From: a virus
Virus record (IMG/VR): IMGVR_UViG_3300032236_001192
Location: 1 to 21,782 of that record
DNA length: 21,782 nt
Direction: 5' to 3' (one strand)
Shown: one piece after another, positions 37 through 21,723 of the stretch
Position numbering within the stretch: position 1 is the stretch's first letter
Layout of the letters: every line of letters starts with the position of its first letter
Program-made: the position numbers and the translations under genes
The notes under the pieces: model-generated
The model's database searches: none
What the model saw: the letters and a program-made list of their open reading frames with translations, nothing else
Told to the model about the DNA's origin: nothing

Positions 37-978
37 TTGCAACAGATCCACAATGGAACTCAACAAACAGTTTCATTAGAAATTTATAAGCAAGGTCAAT
101 TAACTAATGCGGATGGAGCTGTTTTAGTAAGCATAAAAGATGCAGATGACGGCACAGTATTGCTATCATCTGCATCAGCTACTAATGACCCACCTACAGG
201 TAAATATTCTTATGAAATTACCCCAGACCTAACCGCAACTAATAGAGTACTTCAGACCACCTGGTCTTATACTCTAAGCGGAAAAAATACATCACAAACA
301 CAATTTTTCGAAGTTGTCACCCCATATGCTCTAGTCAGCGATATTGTTTCTTATTATAGAATTGGCACAAAGCCATCAGAAATTAATTATTCTTCACAAG
401 AAGATATTTTAATAGCAGAACAAATTGCAAGAACTATGATTAATAACTACACAAGTTTAGATTTTGGCAAAAGATATGGATCTCAAGAAATATTTGGTTC
501 TGGCGGGGATGCATTAGAATTAGTAGAAAAAATGCTTACTCTAGATAAAATTTATGAAAACGGCAGACTTGTATTAGATTATACAGCAAGTCCCGCCTAT
601 AATGCCTTTGGTTATGACGTAGAGTTAAGTCCTACTGGAAAAGTAGTAAGAATTGTAAATAATTTTAACGATGTCGTTTATGACAACCAAGTAGACCCAA
701 CTGTCTTATATTATGGCAAATTCAGGTCAAATGGGCGTTATGAAATTGTTGGAGAAATAGGGTACAATTATGTACCACAAGATATTAAACTTTGCTCTCT
801 GTTGCTTGTGGGGGATTTATTAAGCAATGACGCAGCATGGAGAACAAAATATTTAAATAAAGTGACCCTTGCTGAAGTCAGCTTTGAATTAAGTGGCGGG
901 GCTTTTAACGGTACTGGTAATGTCATTGTTGATGGAATTCTAGATCAATACCGTAATTATAATATTGTGGTGATTTAA
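37..978 (+). CDS. head-tail adaptor (connector) protein with N-terminal Ig-like domain
   Basis: The protein has 313 residues. The TTG start is supported by GGAGGA at 25-30, six bases upstream, and by the upstream stop that abuts it. Residues 1 to about 95 are rich in beta strands (SLEIYKQGQL ... GKYSYEITPD) and look like an Ig-like or fibre-type domain. Residues from about 98 on are helical (VSDIVSYYRIG, ILIAEQIARTMINNY) and resemble the gp6/gp15-type adaptors that bind the portal and extend it toward the tail. It is the first of four consecutive small genes placed where siphoviruses keep adaptor, stopper, neck and terminator genes, and that order is the main support. The family is inferred from position and secondary-structure pattern, not from a diagnostic motif. 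A simple adaptor is usually 100-200 residues, so the extra length is explained by the N-terminal domain. Confidence 0.6.
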   Translation: MQQIHNGTQQTVSLEIYKQGQLTNADGAVLVSIKDADDGTVLLSSASATNDPPTGKYSYEITPDLTATNRVLQTTWSYTLSGKNTSQTQFFEVVTPYALVSDIVSYYRIGTKPSEINYSSQEDILIAEQIARTMINNYTSLDFGKRYGSQEIFGSGGDALELVEKMLTLDKIYENGRLVLDYTASPAYNAFGYDVELSPTGKVVRIVNNFNDVVYDNQVDPTVLYYGKFRSNGRYEIVGEIGYNYVPQDIKLCSLLLVGDLLSNDAAWRTKYLNKVTLAEVSFELSGGAFNGTGNVIVDGILDQYRNYNIVVI

Positions 979-13177: not shown

Positions 13178-13686
13178 TGCCTTATTATAATTCAAATGCT
13201 GGTATATCATTAGCACTTCAAAGTGCATCATCAACATTTTATGCTCTAACAGATCACAATAGGCAGCCGATGGCATTTGACTATGACGTTGTTGAAAAAG
13301 CATCTAGAATGGCAGATGGAACTATGAGAAAATTTGTTATTGCTAGAAAAAGAAAAGTTGGAGTATCTTGGAATGATCTACCTTCAGGAACATTCCAGCC
13401 AAATAATGGAACTAGCCAAGGATATACAATGACTGTAGATGGTAATTTTGGCGGGGCTTGGATAAAAAATTTCTATGAAACAAATATGTTTAAACCAATA
13501 TATGTAAAAATAACACATTCACAAGACAGTGCCAGTGCTACTTCTTCAACCACTTTCTATTCATCCCCATCAGCATCGGGCTCTGAGTATATGTGGGCTT
13601 TTATATCCAATTTTTCCTATGAAGTAACTAAGCGTTTTGAATTTACAGATTTAGTAAATGTAAAAATAGATTTTACGGAGATATAA
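13177..13686 (+). CDS. distal-tail-like minor tail protein
   Basis: The protein has 169 residues, starting in a TAATG overlap with the tape measure gene. It is beta-rich throughout (RKFVIARKRKVGVSWNDLP, GYTMTVDGNFGGAWIKNFYE, MWAFISNFSYEVTKRFEFTD, VNVKIDFTEI), with a Ser/Ala/Thr-rich loop at about 115-133. Strand order and the closing LVNVKIDFTEI resemble the tube-like fold shared by tail tube and distal tail proteins. The gene right after the tape measure normally encodes the distal tail protein that joins tube and hub. It is shorter than the two-domain Dit of many Gram-positive phages (about 250 residues), so it would be a single-domain form. The assignment rests mainly on position. Confidence 0.6.
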   Translation: MPYYNSNAGISLALQSASSTFYALTDHNRQPMAFDYDVVEKASRMADGTMRKFVIARKRKVGVSWNDLPSGTFQPNNGTSQGYTMTVDGNFGGAWIKNFYETNMFKPIYVKITHSQDSASATSSTTFYSSPSASGSEYMWAFISNFSYEVTKRFEFTDLVNVKIDFTEI

Positions 13687-16600
13687 TGCTTGGAAGTTCA
13701 ATTACACAACAATTATTTGCATCTGCCAATTCTATAGCAGTTATTCCTAAACTATGGACAGAATGGAATTATAATGCTTTTATCCAGCCATATGTAACAA
13801 CATCATCTAGTGCTTCAAAGATTTCTATTAATTATAACTCATCAGCAGCATGGACTCCACAATCAATAGACAGTATTGTTAATGGTTCCATCACATATGG
13901 AACGGCGGGAACTGGAATTGATAAATCTATAAATGCTTCATCTACTCCCATTGCTTTTATAATAAATAAAAAACTTGCCAATTCTTCTTCAGTTACTTCT
14001 GGCAAAATTATGACAAGTTTTAGTTCTTCTGCAGTAACATTTTCATCTTCTGCAGCGGGAAATTTTAATAAATTTATATTTTATGTAAAAGTTGGATATA
14101 TGAATCATAATTATGGTCCTCCAGCTCAACAAAAATTTACATCAATATCTTCATCACCAGTAGGAACAACATCTGTTACCTACAGAATTGCAGGAGTTAA
14201 TTCAAGTAATCAACATGTTCAAAACCCACTAGCATTACCCGCTAGTACTGTTTTGGTAACATCTACATCATCGGTAACAATGTCTTGGACAAATACAACA
14301 ACACCAAACCATTCTAGTTCTTATAAAATTTATAAAACAATTTTGGGTGTTGGCAATGCAAGTGCAACACACTATGTAACAACAGTCAATTCACCATCCT
14401 ATGTTGATTTAAATCCAAATAGTTATCCAGATGCATATACTCCAGGAACATATTCAAATGACATTTTTATATCCCCAGAAATAGTTGCCCTTGACCCCAG
14501 TGGAAATACTGTTCCGCTAGATGTATTTATTAAATCTACAGATTTTTCAACTGGTAAATTATCAAATATTCAATCATCTGTAGAAGCAACTGTAGATGTT
14601 TGGAAGAGGGTTGAAGTTTGGTTTGGAACTCCAAAAGATAGTGATGATGGTTATTCTCAAATTTATATGAATTTGAATGCGGTTGCAGAATATGAAGGAG
14701 CCGTATTTTTGGTATCTAATATTGAATTATATCCAATAACCGAACAAGATTTTTATTTAACTAATTATTATCCTACAGATTCATCATTTTTACCATTTAG
14801 ACCTGGAGAATCATTATTAAACCCATTACTTCCAAGTTCAGATAAGGTAATTAAGTCAGATTCTTATACAGCAAGTGTTACAAGACCCATAACTTTTGCT
14901 ATTAAAAATACACAAACGTATTTTGCCAAAGATTTATTAACCCCACAAATGCAAATGTTGCCAGCAATGGATGATAAGTTTACATATTATATTTCTTCTT
15001 CTAAAGAAAATTCAATTAGAGCACAATATAATCAATATTTGTCTATTAACAAAATTGTATTAAAATATGTCAATACAATTTCTCAAATTAATTCTGGAAG
15101 CATGCTAATATACACAGGTTCAAATAATGATGTAACCAAAATAGCACTTCCATCTGCATCTTTAAACAGCAACGGCTTGACTGTTTTATATTATAATGGA
15201 TCAAATTGGTCAACAAGTTCTTGGACTTCCCCACCACAATTAACTTCAAGCGGAACATTTCAAAATGTTTTAAATAATGTTAGGGGTATTGGTTTTGTAG
15301 CAACATCATTATCGCAAAATTCTAATTTTACCAATACAAATGTATCTGGAGATGATTTATTAAAAATGCATGTTGTAGAACTATCTCCAAGATTAGAGCT
15401 AGATCTTACTCCAATTTTAGAAAGTTTTAGTGTTAAGTTAGATTTAACTTCTCCAAATAACAATGGTTTTCCTTTGTCATATATAAATTCAAATTCTGGA
15501 ACTGTAGAATTAAGTAATATTCCAGTTTATCAAAACAATACAATTGGATCCACCATTTTTGAAAATATGTCTGCTAGTTCAGCATTTAGTAATTTGTTGC
15601 GACAGGGAGTAAAATTTAATTTATTTTTAGAATCTCCATCTTTTCAGCCAGATCTAACAGAAAGAGTTCCACAACTTTTAATGTATTCTCATTCTTGGGG
15701 AATCAATGACATTGATAAAGTATCAGTTGAATTGTACGATGTTACAAAAATTTATCATGGAATGGAGTCTCCAAATTTTGCTTGTGAAAGAAGTGATCTT
15801 TTTAGTATTGTAACTACACTCTTAAATACCGCTGGGTTTAGCGACTACGACTATGACGGATTATATTATGTATGTAAATCTTCTACAACAACACCTAGTT
15901 TTTGGTACGATGAATCAAAAGCTGTTATGGAAAATCTTCAAGATTTATTTATTTCTCATCAAATAGGTGCTTGGATAGATGAATACGGAATGATGAGATT
16001 TAAGAGTCTTGGAAATATTATTCAGCAAATAAATTCATCAGAATTTATTCCAAATTTTGTAATAACCGATGTTACTAGAAGCAATGTTGGCTCATCAAGT
16101 TTAACGTATATTGCTAATATTATTCCAGACACATTCTCTGAATCGGTAGGGGAAAAAGTTGGTAAAATACAATTAAAATATAGAACACCAAAAGACTTTG
16201 ATAGTGCAGATATAGATTCTAAAAATAGTTCTAATTCTGCTGGAGAAACTTGGTTTTTAAATTCAGAATCTTATCCACAGGTGTGGAAAGAAGAATCAAA
16301 TGCTAGCTTGGCAAATTTTCCACTTAATAAAACACTAAGTATTTCAGACAACTTTTTATCATTTAATCCAAATATTACATTTGTTAATCCAAGAAAAAGT
16401 ATTGGTTCATATACTGGAGAATTAATGATTGGTTCAGAAATAGTTGGATATTCTGGTATGGAGTATGTTTTTTATCCAATAGGATTAACATCTACATATT
16501 TAACAAAAATAATTACTGATGAGTCAGATATTGCTAGAGCAATTGAAGAAATTAAAGATATTTATACTAAACTTGGAAGTCCAATTACACAAGTAGAATA

Positions 16601-18248
16601 TCATCCAACTGGAAGGCTGGTCGGACTTAAAAGAGGTAAATATGGAACAACTCCAGCAATACATAAAGTTGCAAAAGACACAGCTGACTTTAATTATAAA
16701 TCATATTCCATTCATAATACAAGCTTATCAAGTGGCAAAGGTACATGTGGTTTAGATAAATTAGGTTTATTTTTACAAGCTTCCGCAAAAGATGAATATG
16801 TAATGTTATATCCTAAAACAACAAAAGGTTCTGGACATAATTTATTTGCAATAGATTTTACCGTATCAATGCTTTCAACAAAAAGATCAGCTCATACCGA
16901 CACAGTAAGATATAAAAAAATACATAATAAATTAGTTAAAGATAAAAATGGGAAAATTGTTAAAAAGGTAAAAACAAGTGCCTATACAGATTATCATAAT
17001 GTAGCGGTAGGAATATTCTTCAATATGAATGGAACCACAGTTAATGGAACTGCAACAAATGCTAAAGTATTTAGTGGAAGAGACGCAACTCATTTTGTTG
17101 AAATTAAATCCGTACAAAATAATTCAGGAAAAAGGCAAGTTTCATATCTATTATCATTTTATTTTATAGCTGGAAAAACTTTAAACTATATTATTAAAGA
17201 TTATCCAGTATCTAATGTATTTGACGGCATTCAACATCGTTTAGCAATTTATATGCAAGGAGATTCAGTTTCAATAGCAGTGGATGGAGAAAGAATTTCA
17301 AGAGCATCAAAATATTATGTTACAAATAGATTAGGAAAATCTGTATCAAATAAACCATTTTATAATCAAAAAGGTACTAATTTTGGAGCATTTATTAAAT
17401 CTTTAGAAAATCAATCGGTAAAAGTATATATTGATGAAGTTTATGCAGATTACGTTGGAACAGAATCAACTGGTAGAACTTTATCAGCAGATGAGTACCC
17501 TATTGAATCAAGATATTATTTTACATCTAAAGTATTTTTAGATAATATTGTCAAAGGATTTGCACAAAGAAAAAATTATTATCTTTATCAGTCATTTCCT
17601 CTTGCTTTAGGGTTTAAATTATATGATGTAAAACATTCTCTTTCGCCAATTAGACCTTTCTCCGCAAAAATTGTTCCAGTTAGATATGGTTCTCAAGCAG
17701 TACCAAGTAAAACAAATGAAAAAATTAAAGGACTTGGACCAGTATATGAGAGAGATATTTCTTATTCTAGCTTAGATTCTACTCCATTTAGATCTAGATT
17801 TGCTGTTGTTAATAACTCTGATGAATTAGTTATTCTTGCATCTACCACTGATTCTCAAAGCCACGAACCAATTCAAATTTGGTCAAACTATCAACTTTTA
17901 ACAGATGTCAAATTGTTAGAAAGAGTTGTAGACCCAAATTATTCTTTAACTATTGATTTAGAAACAGATTGGGTTGCTTCACAAGCAGAGGCTCAAAATA
18001 TTTTAGCACTGTTAGCAAAATCAACAAATACATTTTATTCGGATATTTCGGTTTCAGTTTTTGGAAATCCATTAGTTCAAGTTGGAGATTTTGCACAAAT
18101 TACATACGGTTTAAAACGAATTGGATATAACCCAACAAGTCCATCTTTTTCTAATCCATTAAATTGTATCATTACTTCTGTAGATAAGGGATTTTCTGGC
18201 GGGGTATCAGAGACAAAATTGACTCTAAAACCCCTAATAATATCATAA
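13686..18248 (+). CDS. tail hub / tail-associated protein with lectin-like insertion
   Basis: The protein has 1,520 residues. ATG is in a TAATG overlap with GGAG five bases upstream. Residues 1-350 are beta-rich, with an FN3-like stretch at about 150-250 and a jelly-roll-like end (VWKRVEVWFGTPKDSDDGYS). Residues about 630-800 have the look of the gp27-type hub: LLNTAGFSDYDYDGLYYV, then MENLQDLFISHQIGAWIDEY. Residues about 1010-1262 form a concanavalin/LamG-like domain (GIQHRLAIYMQGDSVSIAVD). Residues about 1400-1520 return to hub features (FGNPLVQVGDFAQITYG, FSGGVSETKLTLKPL). Such a protein closes the tail tip, opens on host contact and carries the fibres. The lectin-like part probably touches cell-surface sugars. 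No peptidoglycan hydrolase motif was recognised. Confidence 0.75.
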   Translation: MLGSSITQQLFASANSIAVIPKLWTEWNYNAFIQPYVTTSSSASKISINYNSSAAWTPQSIDSIVNGSITYGTAGTGIDKSINASSTPIAFIINKKLANSSSVTSGKIMTSFSSSAVTFSSSAAGNFNKFIFYVKVGYMNHNYGPPAQQKFTSISSSPVGTTSVTYRIAGVNSSNQHVQNPLALPASTVLVTSTSSVTMSWTNTTTPNHSSSYKIYKTILGVGNASATHYVTTVNSPSYVDLNPNSYPDAYTPGTYSNDIFISPEIVALDPSGNTVPLDVFIKSTDFSTGKLSNIQSSVEATVDVWKRVEVWFGTPKDSDDGYSQIYMNLNAVAEYEGAVFLVSNIELYPITEQDFYLTNYYPTDSSFLPFRPGESLLNPLLPSSDKVIKSDSYTASVTRPITFAIKNTQTYFAKDLLTPQMQMLPAMDDKFTYYISSSKENSIRAQYNQYLSINKIVLKYVNTISQINSGSMLIYTGSNNDVTKIALPSASLNSNGLTVLYYNGSNWSTSSWTSPPQLTSSGTFQNVLNNVRGIGFVATSLSQNSNFTNTNVSGDDLLKMHVVELSPRLELDLTPILESFSVKLDLTSPNNNGFPLSYINSNSGTVELSNIPVYQNNTIGSTIFENMSASSAFSNLLRQGVKFNLFLESPSFQPDLTERVPQLLMYSHSWGINDIDKVSVELYDVTKIYHGMESPNFACERSDLFSIVTTLLNTAGFSDYDYDGLYYVCKSSTTTPSFWYDESKAVMENLQDLFISHQIGAWIDEYGMMRFKSLGNIIQQINSSEFIPNFVITDVTRSNVGSSSLTYIANIIPDTFSESVGEKVGKIQLKYRTPKDFDSADIDSKNSSNSAGETWFLNSESYPQVWKEESNASLANFPLNKTLSISDNFLSFNPNITFVNPRKSIGSYTGELMIGSEIVGYSGMEYVFYPIGLTSTYLTKIITDESDIARAIEEIKDIYTKLGSPITQVEYHPTGRLVGLKRGKYGTTPAIHKVAKDTADFNYKSYSIHNTSLSSGKGTCGLDKLGLFLQASAKDEYVMLYPKTTKGSGHNLFAIDFTVSMLSTKRSAHTDTVRYKKIHNKLVKDKNGKIVKKVKTSAYTDYHNVAVGIFFNMNGTTVNGTATNAKVFSGRDATHFVEIKSVQNNSGKRQVSYLLSFYFIAGKTLNYIIKDYPVSNVFDGIQHRLAIYMQGDSVSIAVDGERISRASKYYVTNRLGKSVSNKPFYNQKGTNFGAFIKSLENQSVKVYIDEVYADYVGTESTGRTLSADEYPIESRYYFTSKVFLDNIVKGFAQRKNYYLYQSFPLALGFKLYDVKHSLSPIRPFSAKIVPVRYGSQAVPSKTNEKIKGLGPVYERDISYSSLDSTPFRSRFAVVNNSDELVILASTTDSQSHEPIQIWSNYQLLTDVKLLERVVDPNYSLTIDLETDWVASQAEAQNILALLAKSTNTFYSDISVSVFGNPLVQVGDFAQITYGLKRIGYNPTSPSFSNPLNCIITSVDKGFSGGVSETKLTLKPLIIS
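16713..17471 (+). other. concanavalin/LamG-like domain inserted in the tail hub
   Basis: Residues about 1010-1262 of the hub begin at GTCGLDKLGLFLQA and end near VYIDEVYADYVG. The pattern of a buried strand HRLAIYMQGDSVSIAVDGER followed by a closing strand VKVYIDEVYADY is typical of the LamG/laminin-G jelly roll. A Lys-rich loop (HNKLVKDKNGKIVKKVK) lies in the middle. It sits between the two parts of the hub core and is a likely carbohydrate-binding addition. Confidence 0.55.
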
Positions 18249-18276: not shown

Positions 18277-18753
18277 ATGACAGTTCAGAAACATCATAAT
18301 AAAAAGAAGACAAAAAAGACTCAAAAGTATACTAATCCTAGTTCTATACCTAAAAAGAAAAAAACAAAGATCACCAAAGATGATCCAAGAAATACAGATT
18401 TAAATAAAGAACAATCTAATGAAATTTATGATATTGTGGATGATGACTATACATCCAGTCTTGATGAAATAGATATTTCTACTGATTTTTGGGATGAAAA
18501 TAATGATCCAGATTCTTATTATGATATTGATGATGATCCAGTAATTGCTACCCCAATAGAAACTATGAGTGATAATTCTCTAGATGCAACACTCTCAGCC
18601 CCCACAAATTTGTATATTGATCCAAACAGTTATCAGCTAGAAAATAATTCAGCAAATTCAGATGGGTCTGTCAGATGGGTAGCCTATCTGTATTTTGATG
18701 ATGTTGAGGGTGCTGAGTCCTATGAATATGTTTTGAATGCGAGTGCAAAGTGA
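18277..18753 (+). CDS. charged tail protein ending in half an FN3 domain
   Basis: The protein has 158 residues. ATG lies four bases after TTGGAGG. It has three parts. Residues 1-38 are strongly basic (HHNKKKTKKTQKYTN, PKKKKTKITK). Residues 39-100 are strongly acidic (IYDIVDDDYTSSLDEIDIS, DENNDPDSYYDIDDDP) and likely disordered. Residues 107-158 (SAPTNLYIDPNSYQ ... WVAYLYFDDVEGAESYEYVL) are the first strands of a fibronectin type III domain and stop at NASAK, about half way through. The missing half is found at the start of the gene at 19687. It is likely a tail-tip linker or fibre anchor, but I know no family for the charged part. Its stop overlaps the GTG of the next gene by four bases (GTGA). 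Confidence 0.65.
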   Translation: MTVQKHHNKKKTKKTQKYTNPSSIPKKKKTKITKDDPRNTDLNKEQSNEIYDIVDDDYTSSLDEIDISTDFWDENNDPDSYYDIDDDPVIATPIETMSDNSLDATLSAPTNLYIDPNSYQLENNSANSDGSVRWVAYLYFDDVEGAESYEYVLNASAK

Positions 18754-19685
18754 TAAAAGGTAAATACGTTTTTAAATCTAATGGAGAAATAATTGCAGAA
18801 AAAGAAAATATTCTTACTGCAAACGGAATTGATATGATTAATAGATTCCTATCTCAAGGTGTCCAAGATTGGGCGGGAACTGTTGTAGTTGGTTCACTTT
18901 ATACAACAACAGCATCTACAGATACAAAATTAGCCTATGAAGTAAGTAGGTCTCCAGTTACATTAAAATTATATTCTCCATCTGGAACATATATCAATGG
19001 TGCTGTAAGTGGCTCAAATCAGATTATTTTAAAAGCAAGCCTTGACCCATTACTAAGTGCATCCATTTATGAAATTGGAATTATTCCACAAAATTATTTT
19101 CAAGCAAGCATTAAAGACAACTTTTATATTTCTGACTTTTCAGAAGTATACGGAACATCTGGCTCAAGTAGTTGGCAAATTGGTTCATCTAGCCTTAATA
19201 TGAATTTATCGGCAAGTTCAAGAGTAGGTTCATATAATGTTGGAGTAACCACATCTGGTACAATTTTTAAGTCGGGATTTGGAATAGATTTAAGCAATTT
19301 CAACACCAGCGATTATCTGCAAATGTTGTATTATTTACCAAACGCAACATCTAGTGCCCTAGTCAATTTTATTTTTACAGATTCATCGGGTAATACTTGG
19401 ACAACACCAACAATAACATTAAACCCATCAGCAAGTGGATATTATTCTGCATCAACTATTCTAACAAATAGTCCAGCAACATCATTTAATTATTATGTAG
19501 ATACGGTTACTGCAAGCTTTGCCAATGTAAGTGGATCTGTTTATTTAGATTCCCTCAAATTAATGGGTGGGGATACAAAAACCCCAGAAGAACAATTAGT
19601 TAGTAGAACATCATCATCGGCAGCTTTAGTTATAACTAAATATGGACAGCCAACAGAAATTGAATACTACTTGACGGTGACATAA
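18750..19685 (+). CDS. tail fibre / tail-tip protein with jelly-roll domain
   Basis: The protein has 311 residues from GTG in a GTGA overlap with the previous gene. There is no strong SD, so translation is probably coupled. The N-terminus (MIKGKYVFKSNGEIIAEKEN, ILTANGIDMINRFL) and the strand pairs to about residue 115 (YEVSRSPVTLKLYSPSG, ASIYEIGIIP) look like the attachment domain found at the start of many phage tail proteins. Residues about 125-275 form a carbohydrate-binding jelly-roll type module (FGIDLSNFNTSDYLQMLYYL, VNFIFTDSSGNTWTTPTITL, SGSVYLDSLKLMGG). The last 35 residues are a short strand pair (EIEYYLTVT). It probably contributes to host recognition. It sits exactly between the two halves of a split FN3 domain and may have been inserted there. 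Confidence 0.65.
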   Translation: MIKGKYVFKSNGEIIAEKENILTANGIDMINRFLSQGVQDWAGTVVVGSLYTTTASTDTKLAYEVSRSPVTLKLYSPSGTYINGAVSGSNQIILKASLDPLLSASIYEIGIIPQNYFQASIKDNFYISDFSEVYGTSGSSSWQIGSSSLNMNLSASSRVGSYNVGVTTSGTIFKSGFGIDLSNFNTSDYLQMLYYLPNATSSALVNFIFTDSSGNTWTTPTITLNPSASGYYSASTILTNSPATSFNYYVDTVTASFANVSGSVYLDSLKLMGGDTKTPEEQLVSRTSSSAALVITKYGQPTEIEYYLTVT

Positions 19686-19686
19686 T

Positions 19687-21723
19687 ATGGGTTCATTATT
19701 ATTAAATAAGCTTCAACCAGGAAAAACATACACAGTGCTTGTCAGAGCTTTAGACTCTGATGGAAATAAATCTGCTAATTCAGTCACATATACTTTTACT
19801 ACTCCAACCGCAAAACTTGATGGCACACAGCTAACATCTACCAACACAACAGTTGTTACAGCATTGGCAAATGATTCTGCCTGTGTTGTTGGTGGAGCAC
19901 TTACTGCAGGTGGTTTAGATGCAAATGGATTACTTTATGCTGGTAGAACTAATCTTGCTAGTATTTGGAATTCAACTTCGGCGGGACCAGTAATAAGCGC
20001 ATCTCTGACAGGAACAGCAAGTGCTGGAGCAGTAATTATAAATAGCACAGGTATTCTTGGATATCAATTTAGTTCTGCATCACAGAATGCGGGACAAGCA
20101 CAATTCTTACTTAACACTGCTGATGGAAATGCTTATTTTAGAGGAACAGTTTATGCTAAAGCGGGTCAAATTGGAACCAGTTCTGCAAACTCTTGGTACA
20201 TTGGTAACTATGATGCAAGCAATGAAAATTCTCATGGAATTATTTCTACTTTTGGTCATGTTGGTAGATCAGAATTGCCACCATTTAATGCCTACGGAGC
20301 AGAGTTAGACTCTGAGGGATATTTAGAGTTATATAGTCCAAGTAAATATATTTGGATCGTTACTGGTGCAAGTTCTTCTATAGCTTCAGGAAATACAACT
20401 ATTACATATAGCGCATCTACATTTGTAAAAACTGCAAGTGGAGCTGTAGGACAAAATTATATTAGAGTTACTCCAGAAATGTACATGTATCTTGGCAGTA
20501 AAATGAGAGTTTATGGAACAGGAATCCCTGCAAATACCTATATAACTAACGGTTACGGTGGACAAACTGCATCAGGATATATTATCTATATAAACAATAA
20601 TCTAACAGCAAGTTTTTCAGGAGCTTCAATAACATTTGGTCATCCATTTTTTCTGGGAGATAATGTTATCATAAATGGTTTTTCAAATAGTGATTTTAAC
20701 AAAAATGATTTTGAAACTGATGTTACTGCTACAACAAGTGTTAGTTTTACGGTAGGTGGTTATTTTTCTTTTACTGCATCGTCAAGTGAATCTGCAACAG
20801 CATCCGCATCCTATCCATCAATGAATTATGGACTAGGTGCTTATATTGAAGATTACGGTCAAACTTCTCAAAATTTAAGTAATCCTGGAAATTTAGCTCC
20901 ACCATCAAATGGTATTTATTTTAGAAATGGGCAGGGATATACTGGTACTGCAATTCCATCATCAGGAACAATTTACCTTAGAGGATTCAATAGCCTTGAG
21001 AATGTTTCTTCTGCAGCAGTTACAGTGGAATCAGATAATACATCAATTGCATCCCTAACTGATACTGGAACTCTTAATATATATAGTGGAGTAGCAGAAA
21101 CAAATACATCATTTTTTGATACTACAAATGCAGCAAGATTATCATTTGATAATAACACAATTCAATCAACAAGCGGATCAAATGCAGCAACCCTATATAT
21201 AAATCAATTTGGTGGTAATATTGTCTTGGGGTATGGAACATCCTCCGCAAACAATTCTACTGTTTATTCTCCAGCCATTAGATATAATGAAACTGTTACA
21301 ACCGCATCAAAGTACCCGCTTTACATCCTGCAATCTGGAACACCCTATATATATACCTACACATCGCATTTTAGAAGTAAAAATAATATTAATTCAATAT
21401 CTAACTATACAGAACTTTCTAAAGAAATTCCTCTGGAAAAAGTTTCTGAAATAAGATCTTATAATCCGTTTAAAATTTTAAATGTTTCTCCAGTTTCCTT
21501 TAATTCTGTATTAGATACAGATGATAAAGATAAGTTAAATATTGGATTTATTGTTGAAGATATTGCTGAAAAGGTTCCAGAACTATCTAGTATAAATGAA
21601 GATGGTGAGGCTGGTATGTACAATTTAGATGGAATTGTAGCATCAATGCTGGCGGTAATACAAGATCAACAAAAAACAATAGAAAATTTAGAACAAAGAC
21701 TTGCACTATTAGAAAATAAATAG
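19687..21723 (+). CDS. tail fibre with C-terminal S74-type chaperone domain
   Basis: The protein has 678 residues. ATG is one base after the previous stop. An in-frame TGA at 19678 excludes an earlier start, and the SD is weak (GGTGA). Residues 1-43 are the second half of an FN3 domain (NKLQPGKTYTVLVRALDSDG, SVTYTFTT) whose first half ends the gene at 18277. Residues 44-180 resemble fibre shaft repeats, including DGNAYFRGTVYAKAGQIG. Residues 180-555 are beta-rich, Ser/Gly/Thr/Asn-rich and probably the trimeric receptor-binding shaft and tip. Residues 560-678 are an intramolecular chaperone of the S74 type (LNIGFIVEDIAEKVPEL, then a final coiled coil IQDQQKTIENLEQRLALLEN). It likely trimerises, folds and then sheds this domain. 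Confidence 0.85.
   Translation: MGSLLLNKLQPGKTYTVLVRALDSDGNKSANSVTYTFTTPTAKLDGTQLTSTNTTVVTALANDSACVVGGALTAGGLDANGLLYAGRTNLASIWNSTSAGPVISASLTGTASAGAVIINSTGILGYQFSSASQNAGQAQFLLNTADGNAYFRGTVYAKAGQIGTSSANSWYIGNYDASNENSHGIISTFGHVGRSELPPFNAYGAELDSEGYLELYSPSKYIWIVTGASSSIASGNTTITYSASTFVKTASGAVGQNYIRVTPEMYMYLGSKMRVYGTGIPANTYITNGYGGQTASGYIIYINNNLTASFSGASITFGHPFFLGDNVIINGFSNSDFNKNDFETDVTATTSVSFTVGGYFSFTASSSESATASASYPSMNYGLGAYIEDYGQTSQNLSNPGNLAPPSNGIYFRNGQGYTGTAIPSSGTIYLRGFNSLENVSSAAVTVESDNTSIASLTDTGTLNIYSGVAETNTSFFDTTNAARLSFDNNTIQSTSGSNAATLYINQFGGNIVLGYGTSSANNSTVYSPAIRYNETVTTASKYPLYILQSGTPYIYTYTSHFRSKNNINSISNYTELSKEIPLEKVSEIRSYNPFKILNVSPVSFNSVLDTDDKDKLNIGFIVEDIAEKVPELSSINEDGEAGMYNLDGIVASMLAVIQDQQKTIENLEQRLALLENK
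21361..21723 (+). other. S74-type autocleaving chaperone domain of the fibre
   Basis: Residues 560-678 begin SHFRSK. Ser560 and Lys565 have the S-x-x-R-x-K spacing of the Ser/Lys dyad of S74 tailspike chaperones, so cleavage is expected between Thr559 and Ser560. The IGFIVEDIAEKVPEL motif and the terminal coiled coil follow as in the family. The length of 119 residues is normal. Confidence 0.8.

Follow-up and report, generated by a model that had tools for sequence, protein, structure and literature searches.

Can a single fibronectin type III (FN3) domain be assembled from the products of two genes that are separated by a complete third gene? The tail region of an uncultured virus record of 21,782 bases, analysed over its full length and referred to here as the window, raises this question. 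Its tail genes run from a tape-measure-like protein of 2995 amino acids through a small protein and a hub-type protein to a trio of genes, numbered 1 to 3 (Table 1). We propose, with a probability of roughly 0.78, that a two-gene split FN3 couples an exchangeable fibre to a charged adaptor at the tail tip, the two halves pairing non-covalently.

Table 1. Positions of the tail genes and FN3-related features in the window.
Feature	Positions	Strand	Description
Minor tail / tail-hub-type protein, 1520 aa (phrog_10359)	13686..18248	+	directly precedes gene 1 in relatives read
Gene 1, 158 aa	18277..18753	+	basic N-terminus, acidic linker, N-terminal FN3 half
FN3 half 1, strands A, B, C (half 1 by prediction)	18595..18750	+	gene 1 residues 107-158; stops right after strand C
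GTGA start/stop overlap, gene 1/gene 2	18750..18753	+	4 nt shared by the two genes in most relatives
Gene 2, 311 aa tail protein (phrog_9983)	18750..19685	+	carrier domain and CBM-like beta-sandwich
Gene 3, 678 aa tail fibre	19687..21723	+	N-terminal half FN3, C-terminal S74-like chaperone region
FN3 half 2, strands E, F, G	19687..19806	+	gene 3 residues 1-40; LxPGxxY motif
Mosaic fibre-exchange boundary	19777..19840	+	at and just past strand G; identity to L004 up to 0.93-1.00, identity to L003 down to 0.35
S74 (intramolecular chaperone)-like region, gene 3	21379..21582	+	sub-threshold Pfam match

FN3 signature at the facing ends of genes 1 and 3

In the translated window, gene 1 terminates at 18753 with ...WVAYLYFDDVEGAESYEYVLNASAK*, and gene 3 opens at 19687 with MGSLLLNKLQPGKTYTVLVRALDSDG. 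A first-pass annotation of this DNA had read these two ends as the halves of one FN3, and its coordinates, stops and frames, together with the spacing of 23 residues from SYE to LQPG once the halves are joined and the interval of 936 bases between them (18751-19686), are all accurate. The domain is not contained in one polypeptide; stops and starts separate the halves in the relatives read. At the opposite end of gene 3, the Peptidase_S74 Pfam family scored 12.6 bits against a cut-off of 22, with a motif pattern that fits by eye.

Sequence comparison assigns half 2 to FN3 strands E-F-G. On its own, the profile of the gene 3 N-terminus aligned with the later half of FN3 domains of known structure (those of Tenascin-R and fibronectin), with an E-value of 1.4e-9 over these strands. 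The LxPGxxY motif, which covers the E-F turn and strand F, reads LQPGKTY in gene 3; its L, P and G are invariant in ten aligned relatives, and the P varies in L018, L020 and L030. The gene 1 half alone was undetectable as FN3 by sequence methods and had no meaningful match in the PDB, so its FN3 identity rests mainly on structure prediction.

Once joined, the halves were compared with known FN3 domains as a unit. The joined window sequence scored 18.4 bits against PF00041 (cut-off 25), and the fn3 Pfam family was matched by 14 of 16 joined sequences, with a best E-value of 4.3e-6. The match to the FN3 of Tie2 rose from 19.8 to 34.9 bits after half 1 was added, over positions 4-77, between profiles that differ in their row sets. 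Matches of the joined halves cross the junction in the correct order. Using hhalign against an intact phage FN3 profile, the aligned part of the template grew from 64-101 to 27-101 on joining, with a small gain in score (41.5 to 43.4), and halves placed in swapped order did not extend the match. A Moorella phage protein has an intact FN3 as its third such domain, and the joined halves of L003, a close uncultured relative, aligned with 94 of its 97 residues (E 1e-3), only 3-4 residues being absent at the junction. An upstream extension of the gene 3 match in Jada was rejected as a chance alignment that lies outside the gene 2 frame and contains a stop.

Predicted fold of the two halves

The co-folding proposed in the first-pass annotation was run as a single-chain proxy. 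AlphaFold2 received window positions 18586-19815 as one chain, read straight through with stops as glycine, consisting of half 1, 312 out-of-frame residues and half 2, and was supplied with aligned natural halves of the relatives. Mean pLDDT in blocks of ten residues was 94, 94, 83, 97 and 96 in half 1 and 95, 97, 97 and 91 in half 2, and blocks within the nonsense linker ranged from 29 to 73. Both halves are predicted to lie in one seven-stranded FN3 sandwich, in a single chain whose linker is artificial and with a program that is familiar with FN3 and could force the fit. On this model, the assignment of the two gene ends to one FN3 is supported.

Structural alignment of the model with VIA-align superposed about fifty solved entries, nearly all of them FN3, across model residues 1-410. 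These superpositions comprised 84-100 residues at approximately 1.7-3 Å (about 94 of 98 residues at 2.1 Å), with Z-scores of 10.2-11.5. A superposition of about 94 FN3 residues requires both halves, as neither alone supplies so many. Foldseek alone, which aligns in sequence order, returned only partial FN3 matches.

Conservation of the split and exchange of the fibre

Both halves and the cut point between them are conserved. L003 and a second close uncultured relative, L004, carry the same gene trio with an identical cut point. Starting from gene 2, tblastn reached Stanwilliamsviridae phages of Streptomyces with about 25% identity. In these the hub protein is followed by a small 'hypothetical protein', then by a tail protein and finally by a large protein whose N-terminus reads MTRILVKDLEPGRTHYIQARV or similar; the small proteins terminate in EYDIRVTKN, EYDVRITKS or EYDVRMTKA. 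Trio and cut are present in both Stanwilliamsviridae subfamilies and in Rhodococcus phages Dorin and Trina, and the gene order of NiceHouse matches the trio. In the phage collection, the gene 2 family comprises 127 Streptomyces and 5 Rhodococcus records, and a tblastn search with the joined halves hit 135 records at 256 places, Streptomyces records mostly being hit at two separate places each. Scanning the viral contigs with a profile yielded 27 loci. Gene 1 ends after strand C in all of these except L031, and strand E opens gene 3 in 26, the sequence of L039 ending before that point. The arrangement is beyond chance, because both halves flank gene 2 in every trio inspected (the window, L003, L004, L006, L007, L009-L012, L017-L020, L023, L025, L026, L028, L030, L034 and L041, with L031 as a variant). 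Its recurrence across uncultured, Streptomyces and Rhodococcus phages makes the split ancient relative to the group and older than the divergence of all relatives found.

The Stanwilliamsviridae trio corresponds to phrog_11696, phrog_9983 and phrog_11445, the same genes with the same split as in the window. The annotations read for these phages list a hypothetical protein and minor tail proteins, and the split FN3 is absent from them. Gene 1 counterparts of the Streptomyces phages match phrog_11696 (E 1.7e-67 and 2.6e-45); the window's gene 1 is without a match to this profile and is tied to them by position, architecture and alignment. Single-sequence searches of the viral contigs and the phage collection with gene 1 gave no match, the gene 2 profile identified no confirmed relative in genome contigs, and the Rhodococcus gene 2 protein had no match in viral contigs.

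Purifying selection acts on both halves. In valid pairs, half 1 had a dN/dS ratio of about 0.07-0.26 and half 2 one of no more than about 0.29, as rough values with many dS near saturation; pairs involving L023, which is one codon out of register, were left out. Ratios well below 1 and conservation in distant phages support the earlier view that both halves have stayed in use.

The variant locus L031 (1185-2971) contains two tandem gene 1 paralogues, ahead of one gene 2 and one gene 3 half; in each paralogue the FN3 A-C half precedes an additional C-terminal domain, which differs between the two. Partner and stoichiometry of the gene 1 half are less simple in this locus. Two gene 1 copies facing a single gene 3 half, and a half 1 that is unrecognisable as FN3 by itself, would suit an alternative in which the halves are not partners, each being a degenerate or domain-swapped remnant or pairing with another tail protein or with a copy of itself. 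We regard this as improbable, if the best of the alternatives: the halves are kept together in the lineages examined, cut in the same loop and under purifying selection, and both fit one FN3 that uses almost every residue.

The fibre itself follows a different pattern from the halves. At 19777-19837 the nucleotide identity of the window to L004 increases from about 0.72 to 0.93-0.98, and at 19837 its identity to L003 drops from about 0.7 to 0.35. As the change point sits at strand G, where half 2 ends, the sequences place the joint in the constant backbone and the exchanged part of the fibre past strand G. Gene 3 is thus mosaic (window 19837-21723): stretches that follow the FN3 half, and others at the S74-like end, are nearly identical in the window and L004, and the part between them diverges. 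L003 (5939-8260) carries an unrelated fibre beyond its FN3 half.

Gene 2, reading phase and the origin of the split

Gene 2 had been described as a whole fibre gene lodged between the halves. It is indeed a complete gene, encoding a small tail protein and not a fibre. Its product matches phrog_9983 (E 2e-14) over profile positions 2-271 of 273, and its model, with a mean pLDDT of 82.6, displays a carrier domain into which, at residues ~120-278, a CBM-like beta-sandwich is inserted; the sandwich resembles CBM6/11/30 structures (Z ~12). This insert also strongly resembles the Haloferax tailed virus 1 (HFTV1) turret protein, with a Z-score of 15. An N-terminal beta hairpin (KGxYxFxxNGE..., window 18750-18810) is present in the window, L003 and Loccivirinae and absent in L004 (5010), Boydwoodruffvirinae and the Rhodococcus phages.

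In aligned relatives gene 2 ends in a conserved strand (E/D-I-E-Y), immediately before gene 3, and this strand (TEIEYYLTVT in the window) might complete the gene 3 half, with gene 1 pairing elsewhere. Such a role is decidedly unlikely. In the gene 2 model the C-terminal strand at 302-310 (pLDDT ~90) is already part of the protein's own fold, formed without gene 3, which does not make gene 2 a likely donor of the missing strands; moreover, a single strand cannot replace A, B and C, and the co-fold proxy draws the missing strands from gene 1.

The first-pass annotation had also attached weight to the interval between the halves being exactly 312 codons, in phase. Gene 1 and gene 3 share a reading phase in only 3 of 20 trios, so the equal phase in the window is a coincidence and loses its value as evidence. 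The similarity of the two gene boundaries, which had been pointed out as well, is real and has no special meaning, as both are ordinary start/stop overlaps: in most relatives the overlap of genes 1 and 2 reads ATGA or GTGA, and that of genes 2 and 3 reads ATGA or TAATG. These overlaps suggest that translation of the trio is coupled. Covalent joining of the gene 1 and gene 3 products is unlikely because the phase is not kept and no RNA family, introns included, reached threshold in the window and three relatives (Rfam matches within 18600-19800 are weak and far below it). Although the frames are in phase in the window and introns are known in phage tail genes (PMC3706429), intron splicing, ribosome bypassing, recoding or an assembly error in the window can together be given very little credence, since gene 3 retains its own start codon, a complete conserved gene 2 sits inside and the arrangement recurs in many independent genomes.

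How the split arose was addressed by searching the phage collection with the joined halves for an uninterrupted homologue. No unsplit orthologue appeared; matches crossing the junction were FN3 domains of other proteins or weak. Among them, the Moorella phage 'central tail fiber J' (E 1e-3) is an FN3 of another protein, and Bacillus phages matched only weakly (E ~5). An ancestral fibre gene that gene 2 interrupted is thus a plausible but unproven origin. The idea in its original form, a fibre gene inserted into one ancestral gene, is unproven as well, given the missing unsplit orthologue, a split older than the divergence of all relatives found, the unconserved phase and the nature of gene 2.

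A candidate joint at the tail tip

In the arrangement that we propose, gene 1 would encode a small charged adaptor in which a basic N-terminus is followed by an acidic linker, probably flexible, and by strands A-B-C at the C-terminus, while gene 3 would contribute strands E-F-G at the root of the fibre. Translated separately from a coupled cluster, the halves would assemble non-covalently into one FN3 sandwich, forming a peg-and-socket joint that clips the fibre to the adaptor beside the hub, at the tail tip. Gene 2, encoded between the halves, would supply a separate tail protein with a carbohydrate-binding-like module. A non-covalent split FN3 that ties a charged adaptor to the fibre, as the first-pass annotation suggested, is the best reading, with the halves predicted to pair in one FN3. 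We infer that this pairing occurs between separate chains in the virion, and anchoring of gene 1 at the tail tip is suggested by gene order only. The main evidence for a coupling role is that the exchange boundary falls where half 2 ends. With a conserved joint and a fibre that is swapped past it, the split FN3 would most likely serve as a constant coupling for changeable receptor-binding fibres. The wider proposition, that a natural two-gene FN3 acts as the standard non-covalent plug and socket for exchangeable fibres across the large-actinophage lineage, we hold to be slightly favoured over its negation.

Few modules are more common in phage tails than FN3 domains, which are treated as single units. 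If our reading is correct, the trio would represent a natural split-protein joint, kept as two gene products across deep divergence. It would provide a function for the protein family phrog_11696 and explain how fibres change without rebuilding of the tail tip. The gene 1/gene 3 pair could also serve as a naturally evolved protein-fragment tool. The split FN3 is directly testable in cultured Streptomyces phages, for example Jay2Jay and Coruscant.

Searches of open-access literature (open-licence papers only) turned up no report of a phage tail with a split FN3. Several known systems offer comparisons. In engineered split FN3 and fibronectin-domain fragment complementation, fragments reassemble non-covalently; those splits are artificial, whereas the phage split is natural and conserved. 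In the donor-strand complementation of chaperone-usher pili, an incomplete Ig-like sandwich is completed by a neighbouring subunit, creating a joint; there one strand is donated, whereas each phage protein would give about half a domain. The nearest natural case, working alike by analogy only, is FnIII-2 of the insulin receptor, in which FnIII-2a lies on the alpha chain and FnIII-2b on the beta chain, with the cleavage site inside the insert domain (PMC10618199, PMC2577065). Like the putative phage pair, it is a natural FN3 that is broken by an insert and takes two chains to complete. The receptor chains derive from the cleaved precursor of one gene and are disulphide-linked, whereas the window holds two separate genes with a complete gene between them, and no cleavage is needed. 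Insulin-receptor chains are themselves among the structural matches of the co-fold model, with matched ranges, such as 593..809, that span the insert.
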